Below are positions 6,751-56,214 of a stretch of DNA of 64,000 nt, in pieces. Every line of letters begins with the position of its first letter. Position 1 is the stretch's first letter. The notes under the pieces were generated by a model, which did no database searches, was not told the origin of the DNA, and saw only the letters and a list, made by a program, of their open reading frames with translations. The stretch comes from Dacryopinax spathularia. Taxonomy: Eukaryota; Basidiomycota; Dacrymycetes; Dacrymycetales; Dacrymycetaceae. The stretch covers positions 2,480,001-2,544,000 of the forward strand of contig JBBPFI010000002.1 in NCBI GenBank assembly GCA_037974965.1. The letters are read 5' to 3'. Both the position numbers and the translations under genes were made by a program.

Positions 6751-7705
6751 ATGTCGTTGCCTCTTTCCACCATGCCAAAAGCAACAAAAGCGCAGAAGCG
6801 AAAGCAAAGGATCATGGCAGAAGCCAGAGAAGCCAGAGCAGCAAAGCAACAAAAGGAACCGGTGCCAGTTCAGCTCAGCTCTGATGATGAGGATGGTCAC
6901 TCCTGGCAGCCATCCGACTCCGACTACTTTTTTGACCATTCAGACGATTACTCTGAAGCCAGTCTTGAGTCAGAAACAGAGGCACTTGCAAAGCAGTATC
7001 CGGAGGTTGAGCTATTGCAAACCGGCACCAGGTTTGATCGAGAGCAATGGCAGAGTGCAGAGAAGGGGCTGAAGCGGAGTGTGGGATATGCAGGGACAAG
7101 TCGGCAGACATTAGAGAGGCATCGGATAAAGGCATATGCTCTGGAACAGTGCGCCCGTCACATTACTCTTCACTGTGGATGAGCGCTGATTCAGGAAATA
7201 GAGAGGCGCAGAATATGAGACCGATAACATCCTTCTTTACTGCTGCATGTTTTGAGCGCGAGCCTGCACCAGAGCCTGAGGACGAGCTGTATGTCATTGA
7301 CAGCAGCAGCGAAGTGGAGGAGGTTCCGAACCTGGCACCAGTTCAGCCATATCTTGATTGCACTCAGCCTCGCTCTGCACCAAAACCAGCTGCAGTCTTA
7401 CGAAAGGAGCAACAAGAGGCGTTTCATCAAGCCTGTGTAGCGTATGTTGCCAGGTTGGAAAAACTGCTTAAAGACCATGATACCGGCAGAATCACTGGCT
7501 CTCTCCATGTTCAGCGAATCCGCACACTTGCAGCATATTATCAGCTTCGAAAGAAGAAGTACAAGAAGACGGTAGCCTCTGAGCTTGCATCACAATCACA
7601 TGGGCGCTCCAAGTACTGGGGTGGCCGTCTTGTGCGGCAGTGGGGAGACATCTTTGAGCGGACAGGGGAGTTGCCAGTGTCTTTGCGTGGTGTGTGAAGT
7701 TACAG

Positions 7706-7722
7706 GAACTTGGCGCCAGGTT
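7706..7722. repeat. Near-palindrome in transposase intron (copy a)
   Basis: GAACTTGGCGCCAGGTT lies inside an intron between the GTGTGTG donor and an ACTGATC branch-like site. It has one mismatch from the perfect palindrome AACCTGGCGCCAGGTT found in two other introns of the same gene. Confidence 0.8.
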
Positions 7723-8075
7723 ACTGATCTCATCTCAGGGCGGCATATCAAGAGCTTCTCCTTGCTGAATGACCCCGATGTCTGTGAGCAGTTACGTGCA
7801 TTCCTTCGCTCAAACAAGTGGAGCATGGATCCTCGCAAGCTCGCCAAGTACACCACGGATGTCATGTTGCCAGCAGAGCGTGACAAATATGCTCAAGGCC
7901 TTGTATATCATGAGATGCCAGCAGGGCTGCGATGCTATCTCCACGAGACTATCTTCCCTCGCATTGGCATCACAGTGACGAAGGGTATCTCATTGCGCAC
8001 AGCAAGGCGATGGATGCGACGTGAGGGCTTTCGGTATATGTCATACAAGAAGGCAGTGTATGTTGAGTATGTGAT

Positions 8076-8092
8076 GAACCTGGCGCCAGGTT
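8076..8092. repeat. Perfect palindrome in transposase intron (copy b)
   Basis: AACCTGGCGCCAGGTT, a perfect 16-bp palindrome, sits in the intron that starts GTATGTGATG and ends GATGCAG. A CTGATC branch-like site follows. Confidence 0.85.
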
Positions 8093-9000
8093 GACCAGCG
8101 CTGATCAAGATGCAGTGGGCATGAAAGACCTGATGTTGTTGATTACCGCCAGAATGTGTTCTTGCCTGCCATGGAGGCACTTCAGCCACGTCTGCGTGAA
8201 TGGGTCATGGGGAATGTACGAGAAGAAGTGCAGAAACCTTTTTATGGTGCACCACTGGTCAAGGTTGTTCATGACGAGTCAACATTTACCGCCAATGATG
8301 GAGAAGCCAAGAGTTGGGTCCTTGACAATCAGTTCAAGCTTCGGAAAAAAGGCGCTGGTCGTGGAGTGCATCGGTCCGACTTCCTCTGTTCCTCTGTTGG
8401 TTGGCTGAAGGATGCAGGGCAGCAGATCGAGTATGGCAAGGCATATGATGGCTATTGGACAGGCGAAATGCTTTGCAACCAGCTAAAAACACTGGCAATA
8501 CCTGCTTTTGAGCGTGCGCATCCAGGACAACAAGCGCTGTTCATCTTCGATAACTCCTCTGGCCATGGTGCATATGCACCCGATGCGCTTCTTGCGAAGG
8601 AAATGAACCTGAATCCAGGTGGCAAACAGCCTCTCATGCGCAATGGCTGGTATATGCAGAACGGGCACCAGGTTTCTCAATGCATGGCCATTAATGGTAT
8701 ACCACGAGGTATCAAATCGGTCCTGCAAGAGCGTGGTCTCTGGTGCCAAGGCTTATCTCTCAACTGCAGCAACCGTACAGACAAAACCGGCGCCAAGCTG
8801 AAGCACAGAGATGACAACAACTGCTGTGCAGTGCGGATTCTTGCATCACAACCAGACTTTGCCGAACAAAAGCCCTGGGTGCAAGAGATCATTGAGGCTG
8901 CCGGACATCTTTGTCTCTTTCTGCCGAAGTTCCACTGCGAGCTCAATTTCATTGAATACTTCTGGGGTGCCGTCAAGAAGTTCACACGTGGCATGTCTGT

Positions 9001-9016
9001 AACCTGGCGCCAGGTT
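9001..9016. repeat. Perfect palindrome in transposase intron (copy c)
   Basis: AACCTGGCGCCAGGTT is repeated exactly in a third intron, directly after the donor region. A CTGATC branch-like site lies about 15 bp further on, as in copy b. Confidence 0.85.
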
Positions 9017-9272
9017 GACAAGCACTGATCATCTCACAGAGGCTTGTGACTATTCGTTCGAGGGTTTGAAGAGAAATGTGCCTATCGGGCTTGAAGCCAT
9101 CACAGTGGAGACCATTCGCAAATGGGAGCATAGGACTATGCGATGGATGGATGCCTATCGAGGTGGGAAAACAGCAGATGAAGCACAACAGGCTGTGAAG
9201 CAGTACAGCAAACAGCGATACACATCACATAGACGCATTCCAGAGGCTTTTGCTGCGACCTTTGATACCTAA

Positions 9273-45970: not shown

Positions 45971-47081
45971 CGGGATGGTTAATTAGAACGTGCTGATGTA
46001 TCTAACATCCGCGTATTTGTATGATATTGGACTTGATGTTTTCGTTACCTATGAGAGGAAGTAGACGCCAACGTAGGGAGCAAAGGGGGTAGTAGAGCGA
46101 GCGACCGTCATGTAGGATATCAATGCAATCCACTTCGTTAAGCCAAACTAGCCTGGCTCTTATCTTAGAACGCGCAATCCGAGACAAAATGTCTTACTTG
46201 GAGGCATGCAATCGCGGATCCTGCCCTGTCAGAATCAGCTGTCGTGCACCCTTCCACATACCAACCAGGCAGTATAGAGCACCACGTGAATCCAAGTACA
46301 ATGTTTGGCAGCTTCTACAATCCCTGATGCAGTCCACCACTCCGAGAACTACCGAAACGTGAGCGGTGAATTGGCGTCCTATTCGCGCCTGGAAAGTGTG
46401 ACATGCAGTTGGCTGACTCCGTCTAGAACGACCGAGAGCGGTTGAGCAGAGTAGCAAGTTTTTATCTCCTCACTACCCATAGGAGAGGTAGTCCCGCTGA
46501 ATGCGATACAAAAGGCTTTCGCCCCCAAGTCTCTAGGACTTGTAGTGGTGGTTTGGGTTTGGGAGGGTTTGGTTTGGTTTGGGTTATCACCCCGCTGGTC
46601 AGGCGGGTCGGCCGGGAGCTCGCTGAAGCATGCGAGCCTACACACAGCCACTTTACGAAACATAGTGGTATATTGACCAATTATTGTAGTGACTTGCGAG
46701 CGACGTGGATCGAACTCGCGCACTTGGTACTCCGCAACTGACCCGGGGGACGGGCGCATACCCCATTCGGAGACCGTTACACCTTGGCTAAGGTGCCTTC
46801 GATACTTGGGCTGCAGTCGTTTGGATATGACTCTCATGTGCCCCTCATTAGGACGTACCCTCGGCAGGTGTGCCTCATTGCTCACCCACTTTGTACTTCT
46901 GCTAGTGAGGTATTTACAGTCATTTTAGGATACTTATATTCAATTTTATTTCATTTCGTTCGTATACTTTCCCACCTCGTTCGCCTGATACTTCGCTCTA
47001 TAGAATCCTTCTAAGCGTGAGCTCCCTTCCTGTCCATGTAGCACTCTCGGGCCATGCGACACTGACGGTCCAATCCCTTTA
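45971..47081. other. ABC 3' flank, SINE copy 3, and sequence before the transposon
   Basis: 45971-46201 is the 3' flank that is repeated, inverted, at 28456-28680. SINE copy 3 follows at 46503-46820. No gene is visible between 46821 and the left end of the transposon at 47082. Confidence 0.7.
46503..46820 (-). repeat. tRNA-like SINE, copy 3
   Basis: The same unit as copies 1 and 2, in inverted orientation. It shows the ACTACAAGTCCTAGAGACTT tail on the minus strand and the B-box GTTCGATCC. Its flanks differ from those of the F-box copies, so it supports an independent insertion. No clear target-site duplication was found by eye. Confidence 0.78.
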
Positions 47082-47330
47082 TTGCTGCTTACATAATTCA
47101 TGACGCGCGGTGGGCGCGCACGTTTTTGGAAAAAAATGTGCATATTTTCGGGGATGCGTAGCGCAGTCAATTCTGCGTATTTTGGCTTGCTTCAAAGAGC
47201 AAATGTCTTGTATACTCCAAGAAGAAGCGCCCTGTGCTATTTGTCCGGTGTCTGAGTCCACAGACGTTGAGAAAGAGTTTTGACGTGCAGTGGGAAATTG
47301 GGGAGAAATTCACACTGAAATTCTGTCGTG
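47082..47330 (+). repeat. Left terminal inverted repeat of the 8.7-kb transposon
   Basis: It starts TTGCTGCTTACATAATTCAT after a TA. GGGGATGCG follows, then AATTCTGC, and about 220 bp in the block GAGAAATTCACACTGAAATT. Each block is matched, inverted, at the right end at nearly the same distance from the tip. Confidence 0.88.
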
Positions 47331-47488
47331 AATTTTTCAAGAAGCCTATTACCATGGTCGAAAGTATGCAGGGAAGGGCACATAGTACTTTTGAGCAATG
47401 TTCCATTGAGTAGTAAGGCAGATGCTTTGAGGTCAGATAATAGAAGGCTATGTAGCGCAACTGCCTCTGCGTGACACGTCGCCCAACA

Positions 47489-49710
47489 ATGTCTCAGCCA
47501 AATACGGCTTCAGCTTTACCTCGTTCTGGTCCGATGGGGAGTCGAAAGACTCAGATATCTAGGCTGCCTAAGGAGGCTCGTAAGGCCGCTCGTGCGCCAT
47601 CTGTCCTTGTCGATGACACGGGCATCATTACTCGCTCAAAGAAAGTCGCCCTAAATACGGAAGCCAGTCGACATTTTACGACATCGAAAAGCAGCAAACC
47701 TTCCAACGAGCAACCGAAGCCACGACCCCTTCTTAGGAAGGTCTCATCACAGAAGGCTGGGTCCAATTCTGCCGTTGCGGAAGCCACAAAGACAGACGAC
47801 ATTGAGGACCCCGCGCAACAAACCAAGGACAACACGTCTCATCCCCAGGTGGAGGACTCAGCAATTGCTGTAGGAGATGTTTCTGCGAAAGAATCAGATG
47901 GTTGGAGCACCGGTACGTTTTGGTCAACTGTCTTGAGCTCCACACCAAAGAATGCTGTTGCTCCCTCGTCTTCTGAAGTCCATCTACCCGATTCAAGCCT
48001 TGTTCTTTCCGACAATCCTGAGGACTTGCGCGCTCTCATCAAGACTCTTTACAAGCAAGGCCTGGTAACTCGCAGTCAGGTGGAGAGCAGCTTCACACCG
48101 GAATCTTCGATTGCGCTCCCCGACTGTGCAACGGCAGGCACAGAAATCAGAACATCGTCAGCCCAGAAAAGGAAAGCCGGTGGATCACTTTCGGCCGATT
48201 CCACCCAGGAGAGTATCGAGCCGGTTGGCATGGCTCATGTGGGAGACGATGCAGAGGAGATGTTTGATGAGACAGGAATGTACTCCGCGTACATGGAGGA
48301 GACTGCGAGTGACGGGAAGCCTGAGGACGATGAAACTGGTGTGCCTTTATTGACTCCTTGCCTTGGATTATGCTTATGGGTGTAAAGAATGCGTGTCGTA
48401 TAAGATAATGGTCGGATCCGCTGCACGTGTCTTCACGTTGTCCTCTGCTATGGGCTTGAAAGCCTTGCGCAACGAGGTTGGCAAGCTCCTCGACCAATTT
48501 CCTGATGGACTCTCCCTGGCCTACACCTTGTCAACTGCGAAGCTGAAAGAAATGCCTGTCTTACTGGATTCGCCCGGAACATTCATCGAAATGGTGCAGC
48601 AGTGGAGAAGCAGTACAGAAAAGGAAGTAAACAAGGTCGAGCAAGCCTACTTGCGTGCTCATACTACTTGGACAAAGCAAGCGAAGAAAGCCACCGCCAG
48701 TGGCTCAAAGGTTCCCTTGGAGCCAAAGCGCTCAACACCTGCAACTGTATATGTCACTCTCACAAACACGAATGAAGGCAGAGCTCCCCAAAAGGTTGAT
48801 GCGAAGAAGGAGAAAGGAAAGGTACGCCTCTCGCAGTGTACATTGGTATTCTTCTGATTTTATGATAGACGAAGAAAAAGAAAAGGACGACCTCGCCAGG
48901 AAGTGATGACAGCCAGGAAGATGGTGTCAAGAACTCAGTCCGCGATGCTGAGCAGTTCCGCCTTCTAAAGAGTGCAAATCATTGTCATCTGCATGGCCGG
49001 CCCGATGTCCTTCTTCCTGGAGGAATTCATCATGAGCCCTCTGACGCGGACTGGTCCTTATGGAATCTTGCGCTGGTGGGCTATGTTCTCTGATGAGTCG
49101 AACTTGTGTGGTTCTAATGGCAACTCAGCAACGGCATGTACCGGATATCACGGAGACCCAACCTCCAAAGAGTTTACTCGACAAATGGGTGACGCTCAGT
49201 GGCAGCCGTCGTCCTGATGGCCCTCTACGGCAGGCACGCCGACCTGTACGTGGTGATGATCCATCATCTGCATCAACTATGCAAAACCCACCAGTAACGT
49301 TCTTCCCCTCTGTGCCTATGGCACCGATGTCACCACCATGGGGAGGAGCGTTGTGGGGGACAGCAAATCCCTTTCAAGGCTTCTCCATTCCTCCCCAGGA
49401 GTCGGTCTCTCGGAATATCATCAACAATTCGATCCGTTACCCGGCACTCAAAGAGTGGCTAGAAGAACATGTTGACGGTAGTATGGCTCGGAATCCTGAC
49501 AATCGCTCGTTCTCTAGGTTTCTGGATGGCCTGAACTCAGCTGGGCTATATCGACTCAACAAACTGGCTGCTCTTGCAAATGTTGACGAGCTATTGGATG
49601 TTTACGATCCAGCATCATCTTCGGTAAAACTGCCCCGTGGAACCGCAATCCTCCTGATGAACTATGCTCGTCATGACACGCAAGTGTTTGCAGCCAACAG
49701 AAAGCTGTGA
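47489..49710 (+). CDS. Transposon gene A: disordered protein with a small helical C-terminal domain
   Basis: I do not recognise this family. The ATG at 47489 (MSQPNTASALPR) opens a long Ser/Lys/Pro-rich, probably disordered region of about 280 residues. An intron near 48330-48390 follows. The next exon has a helical block (ALRNEVGKLLDQFPDGLSLA, then SPGTFIEMVQQWRSSTEKEV), and a Lys-rich tract (TKKKKRTT) spans another intron near 48822-48868. A His-rich patch (NHCHLHGRPDV...GGIHHEP) lies before a third intron near 49076-49128. The C-terminal exon has a Pro-rich linker and the helical block YPALKEWLEEHVDG, SFSRFLDGLNSAGLYRLNKL, ANVDELLDVYD, which loosely resembles a SAM-like fold (tentative). 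The stop is at 49710. The gene converges on gene B. A DNA-binding or complex-forming role is possible but not shown. Confidence 0.65.
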
Positions 49711-49797
49711 TGGACACCTGCCGCCCAAGCAAAAGTGACATTGGTTTTCCATTCTTCATTTCGCGGTACATATCCCAGTGAACTCTTACTGCTTCAG

Positions 49798-49908
49798 CTG
49801 AAATCAACACTCATTTCCTGACCTTGATTTCTCAGCTCTAGTTTCATTTCAATGTAACAAACTCTTTGACGGAAATCAACGCTTGTTTTGTAAGGTTGAT
49901 TTCTTAGC
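49798..49908. repeat. Two tandem hairpin units between convergent transposon genes A and B
   Basis: AAATCAA and its inverse TTGATTT enclose 16 bp at 49801-49830, and again at 49873-49902. The two units are 72 bp apart and share GTTGATTTC..AGCT.TAG flanks. The position, just after gene A and before the end of gene B, fits a two-way 3' end signal or a protein-binding site. The same GAAATCAAGGTTGGAA wording recurs near the right terminal repeat at about 55574. Confidence 0.7.
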
Positions 49909-50155
49909 TATAGTCCCATTTTGACGTTGCTAGAATACTGGCTTGGATTTCCTCTAATAAAAGAACACACTCGTTTACAAAGTACCGTGCCGCATCCAGA
50001 CAAAATCTAAAAAGCGGCCTGTCGCAATAATAGGCTGACGAGATCCATTGGCAAACAACGAGCAGTACATACAAACGAGAAAGATCGCGACACGATTACA
50101 CTCCAGTTGCAGTACATGAGGATCAGACAACATGCTGTAAGGGAACAATACCACA

Positions 50156-52996
50156 CTAGAACCTAGGGCGACCGCGAATACGCTGGGCTTTCTTGAAGAT
50201 ACCGCGCTGACGAGCAGAAGGAACAATTTCAGGTTCCAGCCCGAGCTGTTCATTCATCTCGAACTCGAGCTCATGTTGAACCACTTTCTGTATTGCCTGT
50301 TCGCCAGTCAGAAGAAGATCAGTAGTATAACCGTTGAACATACCGCTTCAAAGAGCTGCGAAGCAAAAACGCGTGAGGATGCCGGCAGTGTACGAATGAT
50401 CTTCTTCTCAACAAGGGTTTTGAGGTGGTCTGTCTCGGGCTCCCGTTTGCATTCGAACTCTGGTGGAAGACGCTCGAGTGTACCTGTACCAGAGTATTAG
50501 TATTGCACCGGACTAGGCAAGAACGACGTACGCAGTTGTTCAAACACATCCATGAAATCATCGGGAATTTGGAGAGCGGTCTCGTCTGTAGGCGGAGCAG
50601 GAGGAACCAGGTTGGCTTGATGTGCATATGCACGCGCCAGTACCGCTGGGTCCAGCTGTGTATCCGATGGCAGAATATATGTTGTCGCTTCTATGTATGT
50701 TTGATACCAGTCGGGATCCGTCAGTAGTAAGGGGAAGTACTCGGTAGCCGTCGCATGTGCTTCCAGAATCTTGATGATGATTGGCTCGATCCGGGAGGAC
50801 TGCCCCTCTTTCCGGCCAATCCAGTCCGGATCGCGGTAGTCAAGCGAGGCCTTGATGACAGGCCACCACTGGCGCAAGAGATCATTGGTGGGCGGGGCGT
50901 TCTCCTTGCCTTCATAGTCGGGATCTTGCCAGCAGCGAAGTGTCCAGCGCACCCAAGGAGTAATATACCTACGCAGATCCTCCTTGGACACAGGCGCTTC
51001 TTTCCCATACCGCACAGCATTGAGCTTGATGCTGTAAACGTAGGAGAGTGCCCGCCGCATAACAAGATTCGGAACCGGCCAGACCCATGGGTTCAAGGAT
51101 GTTGCGAACTGAAGCTTCATATCAGTTTAGTTTACTTATCCAAACACGCTCACTTACATAGGTAATATAAGCATCCAGCAACGCAGTATTGTTGCATCCC
51201 CTCAGCCGGGCTTGCGCGTGAAGGGTTGCAAACGTGGGTGGACGAGCACCGTCCGCTTGAGACCCACTGCCTTTGCTGACGCGTTTGTAGACAGGCACGA
51301 CCCAACGAGCCACCTGCAGGCGGTCAGTCAGGATCAACATCAGAATTTGAAGGTTGATTTTCACCTCTTTGAAAACATCTTCGAAAGTGTCCAGGAACTT
51401 AGCCATCGTTGAAACAATCCGTGGGGTCACTATGATAGCCTGGGGGAACTGCATGAAGAACTGCTTGACGACCTCGATGAACTGATTGCCGAAGTTGAAA
51501 TGATCCGCTGGAACGAAAAAGGGGAGCGATGAGGGGTCCTGGGTGCAGTAGATATCGGTACAGCGCTGGATAATGCGAGTTGAGTACTTGTCCTTCCACT
51601 TATCTGTGGGCTTGCGAAGAGGGTTGTCAATCCACGTAGTAAGGGCCTCGTGCCATTCGAGGAAAACATCGGTACAGATACGCATGAACCGCCAGTCAAA
51701 GATCTCCTTGTAGCTCTCACTGTTGTCGCCGAAGTTCCAGCGACCAGGGCGGAGGAAGAAGTTGCCCATCCATAGAGCATAAGTGTAGAAAATCTACAAC
51801 GGAATTCAGATATGAATTTCGGCAGGGAGGGACAAGAAACTTACATCGCGTCCTTCAGACACCCACATCTCATTGATCGCATTGAAACTCATAAGGTCGT
51901 TCCACGCAGGGTGTTCGAAGAGCCAAGGGACGATACCATGGAAGACGGGGTCGTTGAAGACTCTGATGGCACCTGGATGCTTCGCAAAGCAGGCACCAAC
52001 CAGCATCTCCTCCTCTGCATCGTTGTACAAGCGCGTTCATCCATAGCTTTCTGCGATCGACCAGACATCGGCAGCCGTAGGAGCACGTACGTTTGGATTG
52101 ATGTTGGACGCGAGAGACTCGAACAGCGAAACGTTGTGAGGCTGCAACAATTCATCTGAGAGGTTGTGAGTAACGATCGAGCAGCTGAATGTACGGTTAC
52201 GCACCCAAAAGGTAGACGTGACCGTACCACCAAGGATGCTCGTGCTGAAGGTCCTTGTAGTGTTGTTCGTAGTACTGCCGACAGGCTTTGATCTGTGTAG
52301 CGCCAGAGATTACTGTAACGAGATCGTTCTGCTTGAAGATAGCATATTTCTTCAAAGTTGCCGGTTGCTCCGAAGTCAGTCGATTGCCTCGAATCTCGTC
52401 CCAGTTGGCGATGTTTTCTTTGGTGGTAGCCACTACAATCGGATACTTGCGCCTGCGAATGCCGATAGTGTTGAACGCCAGGACCAGGTTCTCTACCGCC
52501 TTTGGAGAAGGGCCACCGGTTCGAGAATGAAGATGGTTATAGCAGAAGTCGCTCTCCTTTTCTGTTGGCAGCGGGATGCGCACAGTACCAACAAGGAGGG
52601 TGTCTTGCATCTCGTCCGACCGCTCAAGCAGATCAAGCTCCTGCAGCTGAACCTTAGAGACCGCAGCCTAATCCGATATCAGCATATATGCACATGGACA
52701 AGAACAGGTGGGCGCACATAATCACTGTCCGTACTCTTCTGCGACCCCTGCGAGGAGAACTGGGAAGGGCCCAGAGACTCCGTCAAACGCTGCTCCTCCT
52801 CCGTATTCCTCACATCGGTGTTTGCCGTTGGAACCGGTATGTCCTCGCTGGTGTCGGTGTCGGTGTCGTCAATCGCAGGGGTTGGCAGGGTTGAAGGCCC
52901 GGCCTCAGGGGTGTCGGTCGCCTTCGACTTGCCCTTATTCTTTGTCTTCAACTTGGCGCTTTTCTTCTTCTTTGTAAACATGTTCAAAGAAAGCAA
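50156..52996 (-). CDS. Transposon gene B: protein with a ParB-like domain
   Basis: This is a large, multi-exon gene of roughly 800 residues. The start is at 52996 or the ATG at 52981 (MFTKKKKSAKLKTKNKGKSK), giving a strongly basic N-terminus suited to the nucleus, followed by a Ser/Thr/Asp-rich region. After an intron at about 52679 comes a conserved-looking domain: VGTVRIPLPTEKE, NHLHSRTGGPSPKAVENLVL, GIRRRKYPIVVATTKENI, LKKYAIFKQ and VISGATQIKACRQYYEQHYK. Its order (substrate strand, helix, PIVV strand, loop, then xxISGxTxIxAxR) is that of ParB/Srx-type domains, which bind or cut DNA or use nucleotides. The C-terminal half is helical with many Trp and aromatic residues (WRFMRICTDVFLEWHEALTT) and ends in a basic tail (QRIRGRPRF). 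One exon join near 52060-52100 did not resolve. The domain call is by eye only. Confidence 0.6.
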
Positions 52997-53324
52997 TGGA
53001 GATACTCAGTTGGGATGGATGCGGGGTAGATGATGAGCTGGTGGTGGACGATAGTCAGGTAAGTGAGGATCTGCTGGCAGAACGCGGCTTGAGATCAGCT
53101 TCCGAGACCCGAGCAAACACCACAAAATTCCGAAGGACTCCTGCTTACCTAAACACCCCTCTTTGGCGCCGTTGAGGAATGCTTTTGACCAATCTGTCCT
53201 ACATCCTCTCCTCGACAAAACCACTGTCCTTATCACAACTGCGAAATCAACACCTGAATTCTGCTTTCAATTTTCTCCTTCTCTGGCTCGTGTCCAGCAG
53301 CCGGTGGCATCGAGAAAGGTCCTC

Positions 53325-54110
53325 ATGCTCCCGGAACAACTCCGGCAGCACGCTTACCTCCTTTTGTACTGGCTGTTTCCTAATCGGACCACCACGGACA
53401 TGTTGACCACCAAGGATGATATTATACGCGCCCTGCAAATGGCACAAGTACGCTCACAGACAGAGATGGAAGAGATCTGGCAAGCCATAACCGTTTTTGT
53501 ATGTTCTTCCGGTCTTGTTGCCTCAAGTCTCGCCTGATCATCCTTACAGATCGAAACGCATGGATATACGGTGGATCAGCTCCATGGTCCCTCTCCGCCC
53601 TTCGTACCACAGCCCAACGACATGTCTTCGCCTCCTTCGTACAGTAGCCTCGTTCAACCCACAAGCTTCCACACGAATATTGGGAACGTTCGTCCCAATC
53701 CCTCTCTGAAGTTCTACGCTGTAGCGGTGGGTCTTTGGAGCGACATTTTCTATGGAAGCTGGTATGTCGTCTCACCAAGTGCCGCTCAATACTAAGATGT
53801 CTTCTATAGGGACGACTACAAGCACCTAGTTGCATTCTGTCCAGGTGCAAATTGTACCTCATTTCCCAGCCGCGAGGCAGCCGAAGCATGGTGGAATAGC
53901 AAACCACGGCAGCACGTCCTGGTATTTCCCGAGAACATTCAGCACACTCTTGTTACAACTGCGCATCTCAATTATCGGGACCTGAACCAGCTGTGCGAGT
54001 TGTTGAAGAGGGGGTGCACATGGGAACGCCTGCTTCAGGTTGTTGGTACCCTCGTGGCCCCAAATGAGGTTGCAAAGGTCCTGGACGCTCTTCCTGTACC
54101 CGAGATCTGA
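53325..54110 (+). CDS. Transposon gene C: protein with an RNase H1-type hybrid-binding domain
   Basis: A small protein of about 230 residues in three exons. The ATG at 53325 opens MLPEQLRQHAYLLLYWLFPN. After introns near 53499-53549 and 53762-53810 the reading is FYAVAVGLWSDIFYGSW, DDYKHLVAFCPGANCTSFPS and REAAEAWWNSKP. This is the viroplasmin/RNase H1 N-terminal fold (compare YYAVxxGxxPGIYxSWxxCxxxVxGxxxAxYKSFxxxxEAxxFL). In RNase H1 this domain binds RNA:DNA hybrids or double-stranded RNA. No RNase H catalytic domain follows; the remainder is a helical region ending LDALPVPEI. The Trp and aromatic positions are kept, which supports the domain. Its role within the transposon is unknown. The gene converges with the transposase gene, ending only 43 bp away. 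Confidence 0.72.
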
Positions 54111-54153
54111 GCTCCAAATCAAGGACGGAAATGTGTCGTTGATTTTTGCTAGT

Positions 54154-55329
54154 CTAGAAATAACCACACTTTCTATACCATGCCTCCGCGTGTTCCGCCA
54201 GAACTTCCCATATCAGCTCATGCAATGCTCGGTAGACATCAAAGTCGTCTTTCTTCAGCATAGTGTTTCTAACCAAAACATTTTTACGCCGCATAGTGAA
54301 CTTCAGTGACGAAAAGAGCAACTCGATTGGGTTGTAGTCTGGCGAATACGCTGGCAGATATTCAAGGCGCATGCCTCTGAGACACAATAAGTACAAGTCA
54401 TAAATCCATACAGGTTCATGAGACTTACCGAGCTTCCACCATTTCCCTTATCAGCTCCGACTGATGGATCCGACAGTTATCCATAACAACCACCGAGTTT
54501 TTCCCTGGGTACGGATTCATATTCTCCAACAGTCCGTCAATGAATTCGGCAAACGTGATGCTGTCGAACGATCCTTCAACGATCTTCAGCCAGATCACGC
54601 CATCAATGGATAGAGCAGGCAACACGGAGTAACTGCACAGTAGTCAGAGGAGACCATGATGCAGACTCTTGAACGCACCGCTTCCCTCGCACAAAAAAGC
54701 ACAACTTTCGCACCCTCTGCCCCCTCAGTGACCATGCCTTGTTCCGAAAGGTTGACCGCCGATCCACCGCGCTCTCGTCCACAAAGACCAGTTGTTCAGG
54801 TGTATAGAGTAATCCCATACGGTATTTGAACTGGGCACGACTCTCCTCACTCTGTTCAATGGCAGCTTTGGTTATCTGAAACCAACTCGTTAGTCATCAT
54901 CCATCCCTTGCGAGCATAGGTCATGTACTTGTTTCATTGTAATGTTCATGCTGGCCAGATTTCGAGACAAAGTTGCCTCGGTAACCTTGACACCTTGAAA
55001 CTGCTCCAATGCATCTACTAGCTCGTCCAGGTACCGGTCTGGTGCGCGCTGAATGGCACTGTACAGGAACTGGAAGTTGTTCAGAGGTGCTCATGCTCCA
55101 TCACTGTACCACGTACCGCCTTATCCTCTTCATTCAGCATAGGGGGTCTTCCAACCAGTCCCGACGGCACGGCAGCAACAGTTCCATACTTCCGATGATA
55201 TTCGATAATCCGCTGGACAGTCCGTTTCGAAATGCCGGTGTAGGTGATGATGTCTTCGAGTGGGACTTGTGCCACATTCATGCGAATCACTATTTCCTTG
55301 ACTGGTTCTGTCACACGTATGCCACCCAT
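54154..55329 (-). CDS. DD34E Tc1/mariner-type transposase of the 8.7-kb element
   Basis: The ATG at 55329 (MGGIRVTEPVKEIVIRMN) begins a helix-turn-helix domain (EDIITYTGISKRTVQRIIEY) and a second basic DNA-binding part (GLVGRPPML, then LDELVDALEQFQGVKVTEAT). Short introns separate the exons. The catalytic DDE_3 part has VFVDESAVD (first Asp), VVVMDNCRIHQSE (second Asp) and YSPDYNPIE (Glu). Counting across the intron between EAR and GMR gives 34 residues between second Asp and Glu, the DD34E spacing of Tc1-like transposases. The NPIE block, LFSSLKFTMRRK and a C-terminal helix complete the fold. The frame appears open throughout, so the enzyme may be functional. It lies at the right end with its 5' side facing the right terminal repeat. 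Confidence 0.9.
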
Positions 55330-55579
55330 GCTCTTGAAGTAATCAGCAGAGTATTCCAGAAAGGGGAGGGCTTTATTGTTCGTTGTAGTCTACCACCCTG
55401 AGTTGACAGAGCATCCAAGCGCGCGCCAGGCACTGCGCGCCTAAATGTGAGCCACGTGATTGAGAACGCTCTGCTTCAAGCACTTGCTACATTCACTCAA
55501 CCCTCTTTATCAATAAACTGCAATCATGGTGCCCTCCGGACAGCCCCTCTCAGCTCTGGATCAATGTTTAATTGAAATC

Positions 55580-55827
55580 AAGGTTGGAATTTCTGCATGA
55601 ATTTCTCGCCAACGTGACACTCGAGCCCCTCTTCCTATCTTCCCAGCCAGAGTCTGTAGCTGTCTATATTCACTGCAGGGCCCTCCAGAACGATAATACG
55701 ATCAACTTTCGTCTTTACACCAAAGGAAAATCTGCAGAATTGGCTGCGATATGCATCCCCGAAAAAATAGCCATTTTGCGCGAAAAATGCGCAAACCTGC
55801 GCGCGCCATGAATTATGTAAGCAGCAA
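55580..55827 (-). repeat. Right terminal inverted repeat of the 8.7-kb transposon
   Basis: Read from the right tip inward it starts TTGCTGCTTACATAATTCAT, then GCGCGC, GGGGATGCATATCGCAG and AATTCTGC. About 218 bp in it has GAGAAATTCATGCAGAAATT. It mirrors the left repeat. A TA lies just outside at 55828-55829. Confidence 0.88.
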
Positions 55828-56214
55828 TAAGGTGAGCCTGAGTCCGACTCGGGGATCAAGTGCAGTCGAGGGATGGAGCCGCACAATAATGTCCATCTTC
55901 CATCCAAGCGGCGTAATGTTCGTTCTCAAGTTCAGGCCAGCATGAAACCTATCAGACAAGGAGCAGAAGATGTGTCGCGAAGTGGCAGCATTCCTGGGTT
56001 AAGCATGCAATCGCTCCTCCAAGTTGATCGCGAGACACGCTTTCCGACGAGAGACGAGGAAGAGAGACGCGCGGCGCGTGGCTGTGCTGTTCGTAGATGG
56101 GCTGACGCGTCAAAGGGCTTTGGGTGCATACAACGTCGCTCCTACTCCTCATACTCGTACTCGTACGCTCCTCCATATCCAATTCTCCAACCAACCAACA
56201 ACAACCCATCCACC
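55828..56214. other. Flank between the transposon and the UMP1 gene
   Basis: No gene is seen. This is the upstream region of UMP1, with a short ACTCGT/CTCCTC-rich tract near 56145-56175 and CAACCAAC-type simple sequence just before the ATG. Confidence 0.5.

Follow-up and report, generated by a model that had tools for sequence, protein, structure and literature searches.

Transposons of the IS630-Tc1-mariner superfamily are model minimal transposons, with one protein and two ends. More elaborate elements with a DD34E transposase have been described from ciliates. TBE of Oxytricha is described with three open reading frames (ORFs; a 42-kD transposase, a 22-kD protein and a 57-kD zinc-finger/kinase protein), terminal inverted repeats (TIRs) of ~80 bp and telomere-like tips, and all three genes are reported to be under purifying selection, with ratios of nonsynonymous to synonymous substitution (dN/dS) of 0.1 to 0.3 (PMC4724952; PMC7325037). 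Tec of Euplotes is likewise given three ORFs, one of them in the opposite sense and one encoding a site-specific recombinase, between TIRs of ~700 bp (PMC7325037). Among basidiomycetes, TIR_1 of Pleurotus ostreatus is presented as a 1.6-kb Tc1-mariner element with a TA duplication and 214-nt TIRs (PMC4905642), and the much larger fungal Starships are described as sharing DUF3435 and a DUF3723 gene (PMC10175614). Here we describe an 8.7-kb element of the IS630-Tc1-mariner superfamily that has four genes and an array of 30-bp palindromes. It lies in a 64,000-nucleotide stretch of the genome of the basidiomycete Dacryopinax spathularia (GenBank assembly GCA_037974965.1, contig JBBPFI010000002.1, positions 2,480,001 to 2,544,000 of the forward strand), which we call the window (C2:2480001-2544000 in our contig numbering); positions without a contig label are those of the window.

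So far as the accounts cited describe them, TBE and Tec are the closest precedents that we found. Like TBE, the element is of the Tc1/mariner superfamily, encodes a DD34E transposase and has more than one conserved gene under purifying selection (dN/dS 0.02 to 0.24 here). It differs from the published description of TBE in having four genes, TIRs of ~120 bp, a palindrome array and a length of 8.7 kb, and no zinc-finger or kinase Pfam match was found in genes 1 to 3, a distinction drawn by profiles and not protein to protein. It resembles Tec as described in its multiple ORFs, its DD34E transposase and the presence of genes in opposite senses; neither ~700-bp TIRs nor a site-specific recombinase ORF was seen here. 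TIR_1 and the Tc1-like residents of the same genome share the DDE_3 domain, the TA target duplication and TIRs with it, but they are single-gene elements in the descriptions at hand and far shorter (1.6 kb and 1.33 to 1.73 kb, respectively). With Starships it shares the state of a multi-gene fungal mobile element, and gene 2 resembles the Starship-associated family DUF3723 at a non-significant level (E 0.2 and 0.16 in two copies); Starships are given as 27 to 393 kb long, whereas this element has 8.7 kb and a fixed content of four genes, and the DUF3435 tyrosine recombinase had no match among the four element proteins (the genome at large was not searched for it). The transposase exceeds the NCBIfam cut-off for IS630, a point of similarity to bacterial IS630 elements, which to our knowledge have no extra genes, introns or palindromes. 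No four-gene fungal element of such kind was found in the open-licence literature that we searched.

Counting both flanking TA dinucleotides (47080-47081 and 55828-55829), the element is 8750 bp long and occupies 47080-55829. Its interior, 47082-55827, coincides exactly with the boundaries given in the original prediction, a reading of these letters by a model without database searches, which had proposed a Tc1/mariner-type transposon with matching inverted ends, flanking TA, and, besides a gene for a DD34E transposase, three further spliced genes, the four being laid out plus, minus, plus, minus. All of these features were recovered. The outer inverted arms (47074-47109 and 55800-55835) are 92% complementary, and a second pair (47118-47203 and 55707-55792) is 73% complementary. 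The left TIR, ~120 bp long, spans 47080-47199 (plus strand) and begins with the TA target duplication; the right TIR spans 55711-55829 (minus strand) and ends with it. Terminal inverted repeats are a feature of the IS630-Tc1-mariner superfamily.

Between the ends lie four genes of alternating orientation. Gene 1 (47534-49710, plus strand) encodes 675 aa and has three introns (48339-48387, 48822-48868 and 49076-49128); gene 2 (50156-52981, minus strand) has 826 codons and seven introns. Both are orphans. Gene 3 (53400-54110, plus strand; 203 aa, two introns) carries a Cauli_VI, or RNase H1 N-terminal hybrid-binding, domain, and gene 4 (54154-55329, minus strand; 325 aa, four introns) is the DD34E transposase (DDE_3; NCBIfam transpos_IS630). 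One intron of gene 2 (intron 4, 51314-51364) is 51 bp long, in frame and stop-free in the window; a stop at this place in the C9 and C2 copies described below revealed it as an intron. The short introns, like the resident elements of the genome, fit a basidiomycete host.

This arrangement is not unique to the window. A DNA search of the 29.2-Mb genome (24 contigs) with the left end found two further copies, one of 8637 bp at C9:436267-444903 and one of 15,965 bp at C2:1112084-1128048 (hereafter the C9 and C2 copies). The latter owes its length to a long terminal repeat (LTR)-type insert in gene 1, and this insertion is probably recent, since its 714-bp direct repeats are 100% identical. By spliced alignment of the window proteins, all three full-length copies carry these four genes between shared ends, without change of order or orientation and with intron places that match across copies (3, 7, 2 and 4 introns in genes 1 to 4); the runs on the C2 copy add spurious introns at the gene 3 start and at the gene 1 insert. 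A 23-base end pattern, allowing up to three mismatches, matched the genome eight times and a control pattern not once. These eight matches form four proper inverted pairs and nothing else: the six ends of the three four-gene elements, over which the outermost 30 bp are near-invariant, and the two ends of a 727-bp element at C8:696042-696768. All four insertions are flanked by TA. The multi-gene lineage put forward in the original prediction, with four genes recurring between the same ends, is thus borne out by three divergent copies of this genome. We have hardly any doubt that this is a real four-gene transposon. It is presumably a TA-targeting, cut-and-paste member of the IS630-Tc1-mariner superfamily, whose full unit comprises the four genes and the palindrome array.

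The palindrome array, like an in-frame stop in gene 2, is new beyond the original prediction. The commonest 8-mer common to the three elements is AAATCAAC, which occurs 6, 8 and 10 times in the window, C9 and C2 copies, against 0.30 to 0.40 expected under a dinucleotide model. The full palindrome, of which this 8-mer is one half, has 30 bp and an AATT-like center: AAATCAAC-N14-GTTGATTT. Searching with a matrix yielded 25 sites with scores of 18.2 to 43.6 (nine in the window element and eight in each of the other copies); the best score in 15 simulated sequences with the dinucleotide make-up of the window element was 6.4, and no palindrome site scoring 9 or more lay in the 55 kb of the window outside the element. 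When the 16 outer bases were searched against the genome with up to two mismatches, 17 of the 27 sites fell inside the three elements and the other 10 were scattered over the genome; a control pattern gave none. Exact matches of the palindrome number eight, all within the three elements. One of these 10, a near-match on C16, was considered as a further element and rejected, as by eye it lies close to a copia-like polyprotein frame.

The order of the sites is identical in all three copies. In the window, it begins with a left subterminal palindrome (47306-47335) and continues with three sites at the convergent gene 1/gene 2 junction (49732-49902: a weak one at 49732-49761, then 49801-49830 and 49873-49902), where the copies have two to three. 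There follow a site in gene 2 intron 4 that takes up over half of the intron (51331-51360), a site over the acceptor side of gene 2 intron 3 (51794-51844) that reaches 4 nt into the exon (51790-51819), and one site each, from the matrix search, in the divergent gene 2/gene 3 (promoter) interval (53244-53273) and at the convergent gene 3/gene 4 junction (54116-54145). A weak right subterminal palindrome (55575-55604; score 18.2) closes the series. The subterminal sites keep their distance from the ends: the left one starts at base 227, 226 and 227 of the window, C9 and C2 elements, and the right one ends 225, 226 and 227 bp from the right end. The left subterminal half-site is the variant AAATTCA in all three copies.

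We consider it probable, though well short of firm, that a protein-bound palindrome array acts as an organizer and regulator of the element. Under this proposal, the gene 4 transposase would cut and join at the outer TIRs, and one extra protein, from gene 1 or gene 2, would bind the palindrome as a dimer on two half-sites spaced about two helical turns apart. Bridging of the subterminal and internal sites by the bound protein could then pair ends that are 8.7 kb apart. The same palindromes would serve as operators for the element's own genes, with expression probably being set from the divergent interval. Through its hybrid-binding domain, the gene 3 protein may anchor the complex on transcripts or RNA:DNA hybrids and so couple it to transcription. 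Analogues of such an arrangement are the subterminal binding proteins of En/Spm, the internal enhancer and operators of phage Mu, and the inner repeats of inverted repeat/direct repeat (IR/DR) Tc1 elements.

Several points weigh against the organizer proposal. Of the 25 sites scored, 19 had served to train the matrix, and the remaining six, which include the sites at both ends, are weaker (18.2 to 26.0). The 727-bp derivative has the ends and no palindrome scoring 9 or more, so not every transposition event requires the palindrome. Gene 1 or gene 2 is damaged in each of the three copies, and present autonomy is therefore in doubt. The palindrome-binding protein is putative, genes 1 and 2 have no significant family match, and all of the evidence comes from one host genome.

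Alternatively, the palindromes could be regulatory or RNA elements (terminators, operators or intron hairpins) and not binding sites for transposition. Several of them do stand where the 3' ends of convergent genes meet, two in introns and one in the promoter interval between divergent genes, and the short derivative moved without one. The subterminal pair, 225 to 227 bp from both ends, is however outside junctions and introns, even if it could still be an operator at the gene 1 and gene 4 promoters. For RNA elements in particular, the positions inside the half-sites do not pair as in a hairpin: 42 of 125 pair, against a shuffled mean of 51, which is nothing beyond chance. We therefore rejected an RNA hairpin as the role of the palindrome and favor DNA half-sites. 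On balance, a function as regulatory or RNA elements instead of binding sites for transposition seems unlikely to us, although it deserves to be taken seriously.

Were the organizer proposal correct in its fullest form, the element would represent a distinct type of eukaryotic DNA transposon, one whose mobility needs a transposase and three partners, with one partner reading the eight to nine palindromes and the whole element folded in one complex, possibly by a ParB/parS-like mechanism or a DUF3723-related one shared with Starships. We put this forward tentatively, as something possible that we do not expect. Four proteins and a palindrome array kept together near synonymous saturation show that the chemistry of a minimal transposon can operate within a complex, regulated machine. 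The role of accessory proteins and internal sites in a large eukaryotic DDE transposon becomes a testable question, the hybrid-binding protein and the two families of orphan proteins gain a likely context, and the ends and the palindrome together provide a clean signature for spotting relatives in fungal genomes.

The three extra genes look like core parts of the element rather than captured cargo, because their dN/dS is low despite synonymous divergence (dS) from 0.6 to saturation. Amino acid identities between the window copy and the C2 and C9 copies are 69 and 67% for gene 1, 73 and 72% for gene 2, 48 and 51% for gene 3 and 90 and 90% for gene 4; the C2 and C9 proteins analyzed consist of the residues aligned to the window protein, with a few inserted residues omitted. 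By the Nei-Gojobori method, with the first 15 codons of gene 1 dropped and with older intron boundaries that affect few codons, dN/dS is 0.12 to 0.18 for gene 1, 0.13 to 0.18 for gene 2, 0.18 to 0.24 for gene 3 (where the window–C2 comparison includes ~22 misaligned 5' codons and the comparisons with C9 are free of these) and 0.02 for gene 4 between the C2 and C9 copies. For gene 4 of the window against the others, synonymous sites are saturated and dN is 0.06. Pairwise dS between copies is 0.60 to 2.06 or saturated. Every gene is thus under purifying selection between copies where dN/dS is computable.

These data bear on the view that a single-gene Tc1-type element captured three host genes, which it now carries as cargo. 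Such an origin would fit the eight relatives measured in the same genome, which are 1.33 to 1.73 kb long with one transposase frame, and the domain of gene 3, which is otherwise found in the genome only at C4:1795015-1795195. Genome searches with parts of the four genes (221, 223, 174 and 213 aa for genes 1 to 4; one exon or part per gene, taken from hand-spliced drafts or single frames that are a few junction residues off the final models) nevertheless matched only the three element loci, and so these parts revealed no host copy of any of genes 1 to 3. The four genes occur in three of three copies at dS up to saturation with dN/dS well below 1, and element-specific palindromes stand at each gene junction. 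We regard capture as improbable. The original prediction had left a choice between a multi-gene and a cargo-bearing lineage; its multi-gene half stands, and its cargo-bearing half has become less likely with every gene under purifying selection.

Each copy carries a lesion: an in-frame TGA at codon 282 of gene 2 in the window (52037-52039; a sense codon in both the C9 and the C2 copy), a frameshift in gene 1 of the C9 copy and the insert in gene 1 of the C2 copy. It is possible that the two small lesions are assembly errors. Genes 3 and 4 are open in all three copies over the aligned stretch, and an intact version of each gene exists among the copies (gene 1 in the window; gene 2 in the C2 and C9 copies).

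As for movement, the fourth end pair encloses a 727-bp non-coding derivative that has one to two mismatches to the 23-base end pattern, inverted repeats of ~60 bp and an interior unlike that of the long elements. A paralogous empty site of this derivative, with a single TA, is present at C8:1029420-1029701 (74% identity over 228 columns). It shows movement for ends of such kind, the long form itself excepted. When the joined flanks of the three long copies were searched against the genome, no empty site was found, so that the single-TA empty site sought since the original prediction was found for the derivative and not for the long copies.

A different possibility is that the transposon has become immobile and that the host keeps its genes for its own use. 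Only three full-length copies exist, they are highly diverged and all of their genes are under purifying selection, as expected of a domesticated cluster. Against it speak the movement of the 727-bp derivative and the fact that the last 30 bp hardly vary among the six ends, as do the clear gene 1 or gene 2 lesions in every copy, which would be intolerable for a host gene; we consider domestication highly improbable. Finally, two nested insertions or an assembly artifact mimicking one long element can practically be dismissed, because nothing was found in support, though the C2 copy does hold a nested LTR-type insert, and because ends, genes, introns and palindromes follow one another identically at three sites, spread over two contigs, that have diverged extensively. 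The two outcomes that the original prediction had named as contrary to it, extra genes elsewhere without the ends and separate nested insertions, were both absent: the queried parts matched only the element loci, and the three copies share ends, genes and order.

The transposase itself is well defined. Its catalytic triad is D151, D235 and E270, in which 34 residues separate D235 from E270 (DD34E), and it matches DDE_3 at 1e-29 (window, draft model) and 1.4e-31 (C2 copy). A PDB search with gene 4 gave the Sleeping Beauty catalytic domain (E 0.0046). On the NCBIfam IS630 model, for which the cut-off is 100, the element scores 156.7 (window) and 163.2 bits (C2 copy), compared with 80.0, 89.3, 90.6 and 101.8 for four resident Tc1-like transposases, one of which is over the cut-off. 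HTH_Tnp_Tc3_2, the Tc3-type HTH of the classical single-gene Tc1 family, is found below its cut-off in the window element (E 0.054), whereas the two residents that were scanned match it at 1.7e-12 and 1.2e-7. A tree of 35 rows places the element with 22 of the 25 bacterial rows, and the seven residents and the three other bacterial rows stand apart from this group (support 92/88). This grouping with bacterial IS630 is indicative only: the bacterial rows are the 25 of 67 fetched loci that passed a frame and motif filter, the tree leans towards a bacterial grouping because their retrieval used the element as the query, and the tree program warns of long branches. The original prediction had called the element Tc1/mariner-type. 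The superfamily holds, and IS630-Tc1-mariner superfamily is the safer name, because the element outscores the Tc1-like residents of its own genome on the IS630 model.

Among 23 DDE_3 rows in the genome, six come from the three elements, 12 others are over the cut-off and five are below it. Eight of the 12 were measured, and all eight have inverted repeats 1.33 to 1.73 kb apart. At ~8.7 kb and with four genes in three of three copies, the element lies outside the classical single-gene Tc1 family (one gene, ~1.3 to 2.5 kb).

Gene 3 is the only one of the three extra genes with a significant family. It carries PF01693 at 36.4 bits (6.4e-9) in the window and 34.9 bits (1.8e-8) in the C9 copy, with a cut-off of 21. 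No RNase H catalytic domain was seen in it, a PDB sequence search up to E 1 gave 0 hits, and a weak Pfam match to DUF1330 (0.17) is below the cut-off. The sole PF01693 place listed in the genome profile search is C4:1795015-1795195, which we take to be possibly a host RNase H1; this search misses gene 3 itself, where the domain is split by an intron.

Neither gene 1 nor gene 2 has a Pfam match above the cut-off. Weak gene 1 matches below it are Mago-bind (0.39) and Clathrin_lg_ch (0.024). The gene 2 N-terminal region had no match in NCBIfam or PHROGs and 0 hits up to E 10 in a PDB sequence search. Against DUF3723 (PF12520, cut-off 22 bits) it scores a non-significant 10.7 bits in the C9 copy and 11.1 bits in the C2 copy (E 0.2 and 0.16); in the C2 copy the unrelated Pep3_Vps18 outscores it (E 0.019, also below cut-off). 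DUF3723 had no match in the window gene 2 exon 2 (E ≤ 1) or in two full-length gene 2 proteins, and a search for it in the element's own genome returned nothing, with an equally silent control. For a ParB/Srx-like domain suggested by eye in gene 2, searches of the N-terminal region against Pfam, NCBIfam, PHROGs and PDB sequences brought no ParB match. Structure prediction gave a predicted local distance difference test score (pLDDT) of 34 for gene 2 exon 2 and 51.6 for the gene 1 C-terminus, for which a PDB search produced 39 matches at E ≤ 10, none of which reached E ≤ 0.001. Since these predictions and searches gave no significant result, a SAM-like gene 1 C-terminal helical region and a ParB-like gene 2 N-terminal region remain by-eye guesses. 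Genes 2 and 4 found no match in viral contigs, nor did gene 2 in prokaryote contigs.

A few observations concern the surroundings of the copies. Left of the window element, at ~46690-46800 on the minus strand, a stretch looks tRNA-like by eye. ARAGORN called no tRNA there and Rfam called nothing at the gathering threshold, and so neither offered an explanation of the target site. The flanks of the C2 copy (around C2:1112085), joined at one TA, give an open frame from ATG that includes a membrane-like segment by eye; the C2 element may have interrupted a host gene. A few kilobases from the C9 element, in C9:428500-434589, lies a 99.9% identical inverted repeat that is at least 2071 bp long. Elsewhere in the window, 7047-9028 resembles, by eye, a further DDE-superfamily transposase region; it includes a sub-cut-off DDE_3 match (C2:2488870-2488983), and an equal-scoring match lies at C11:43014-43127.

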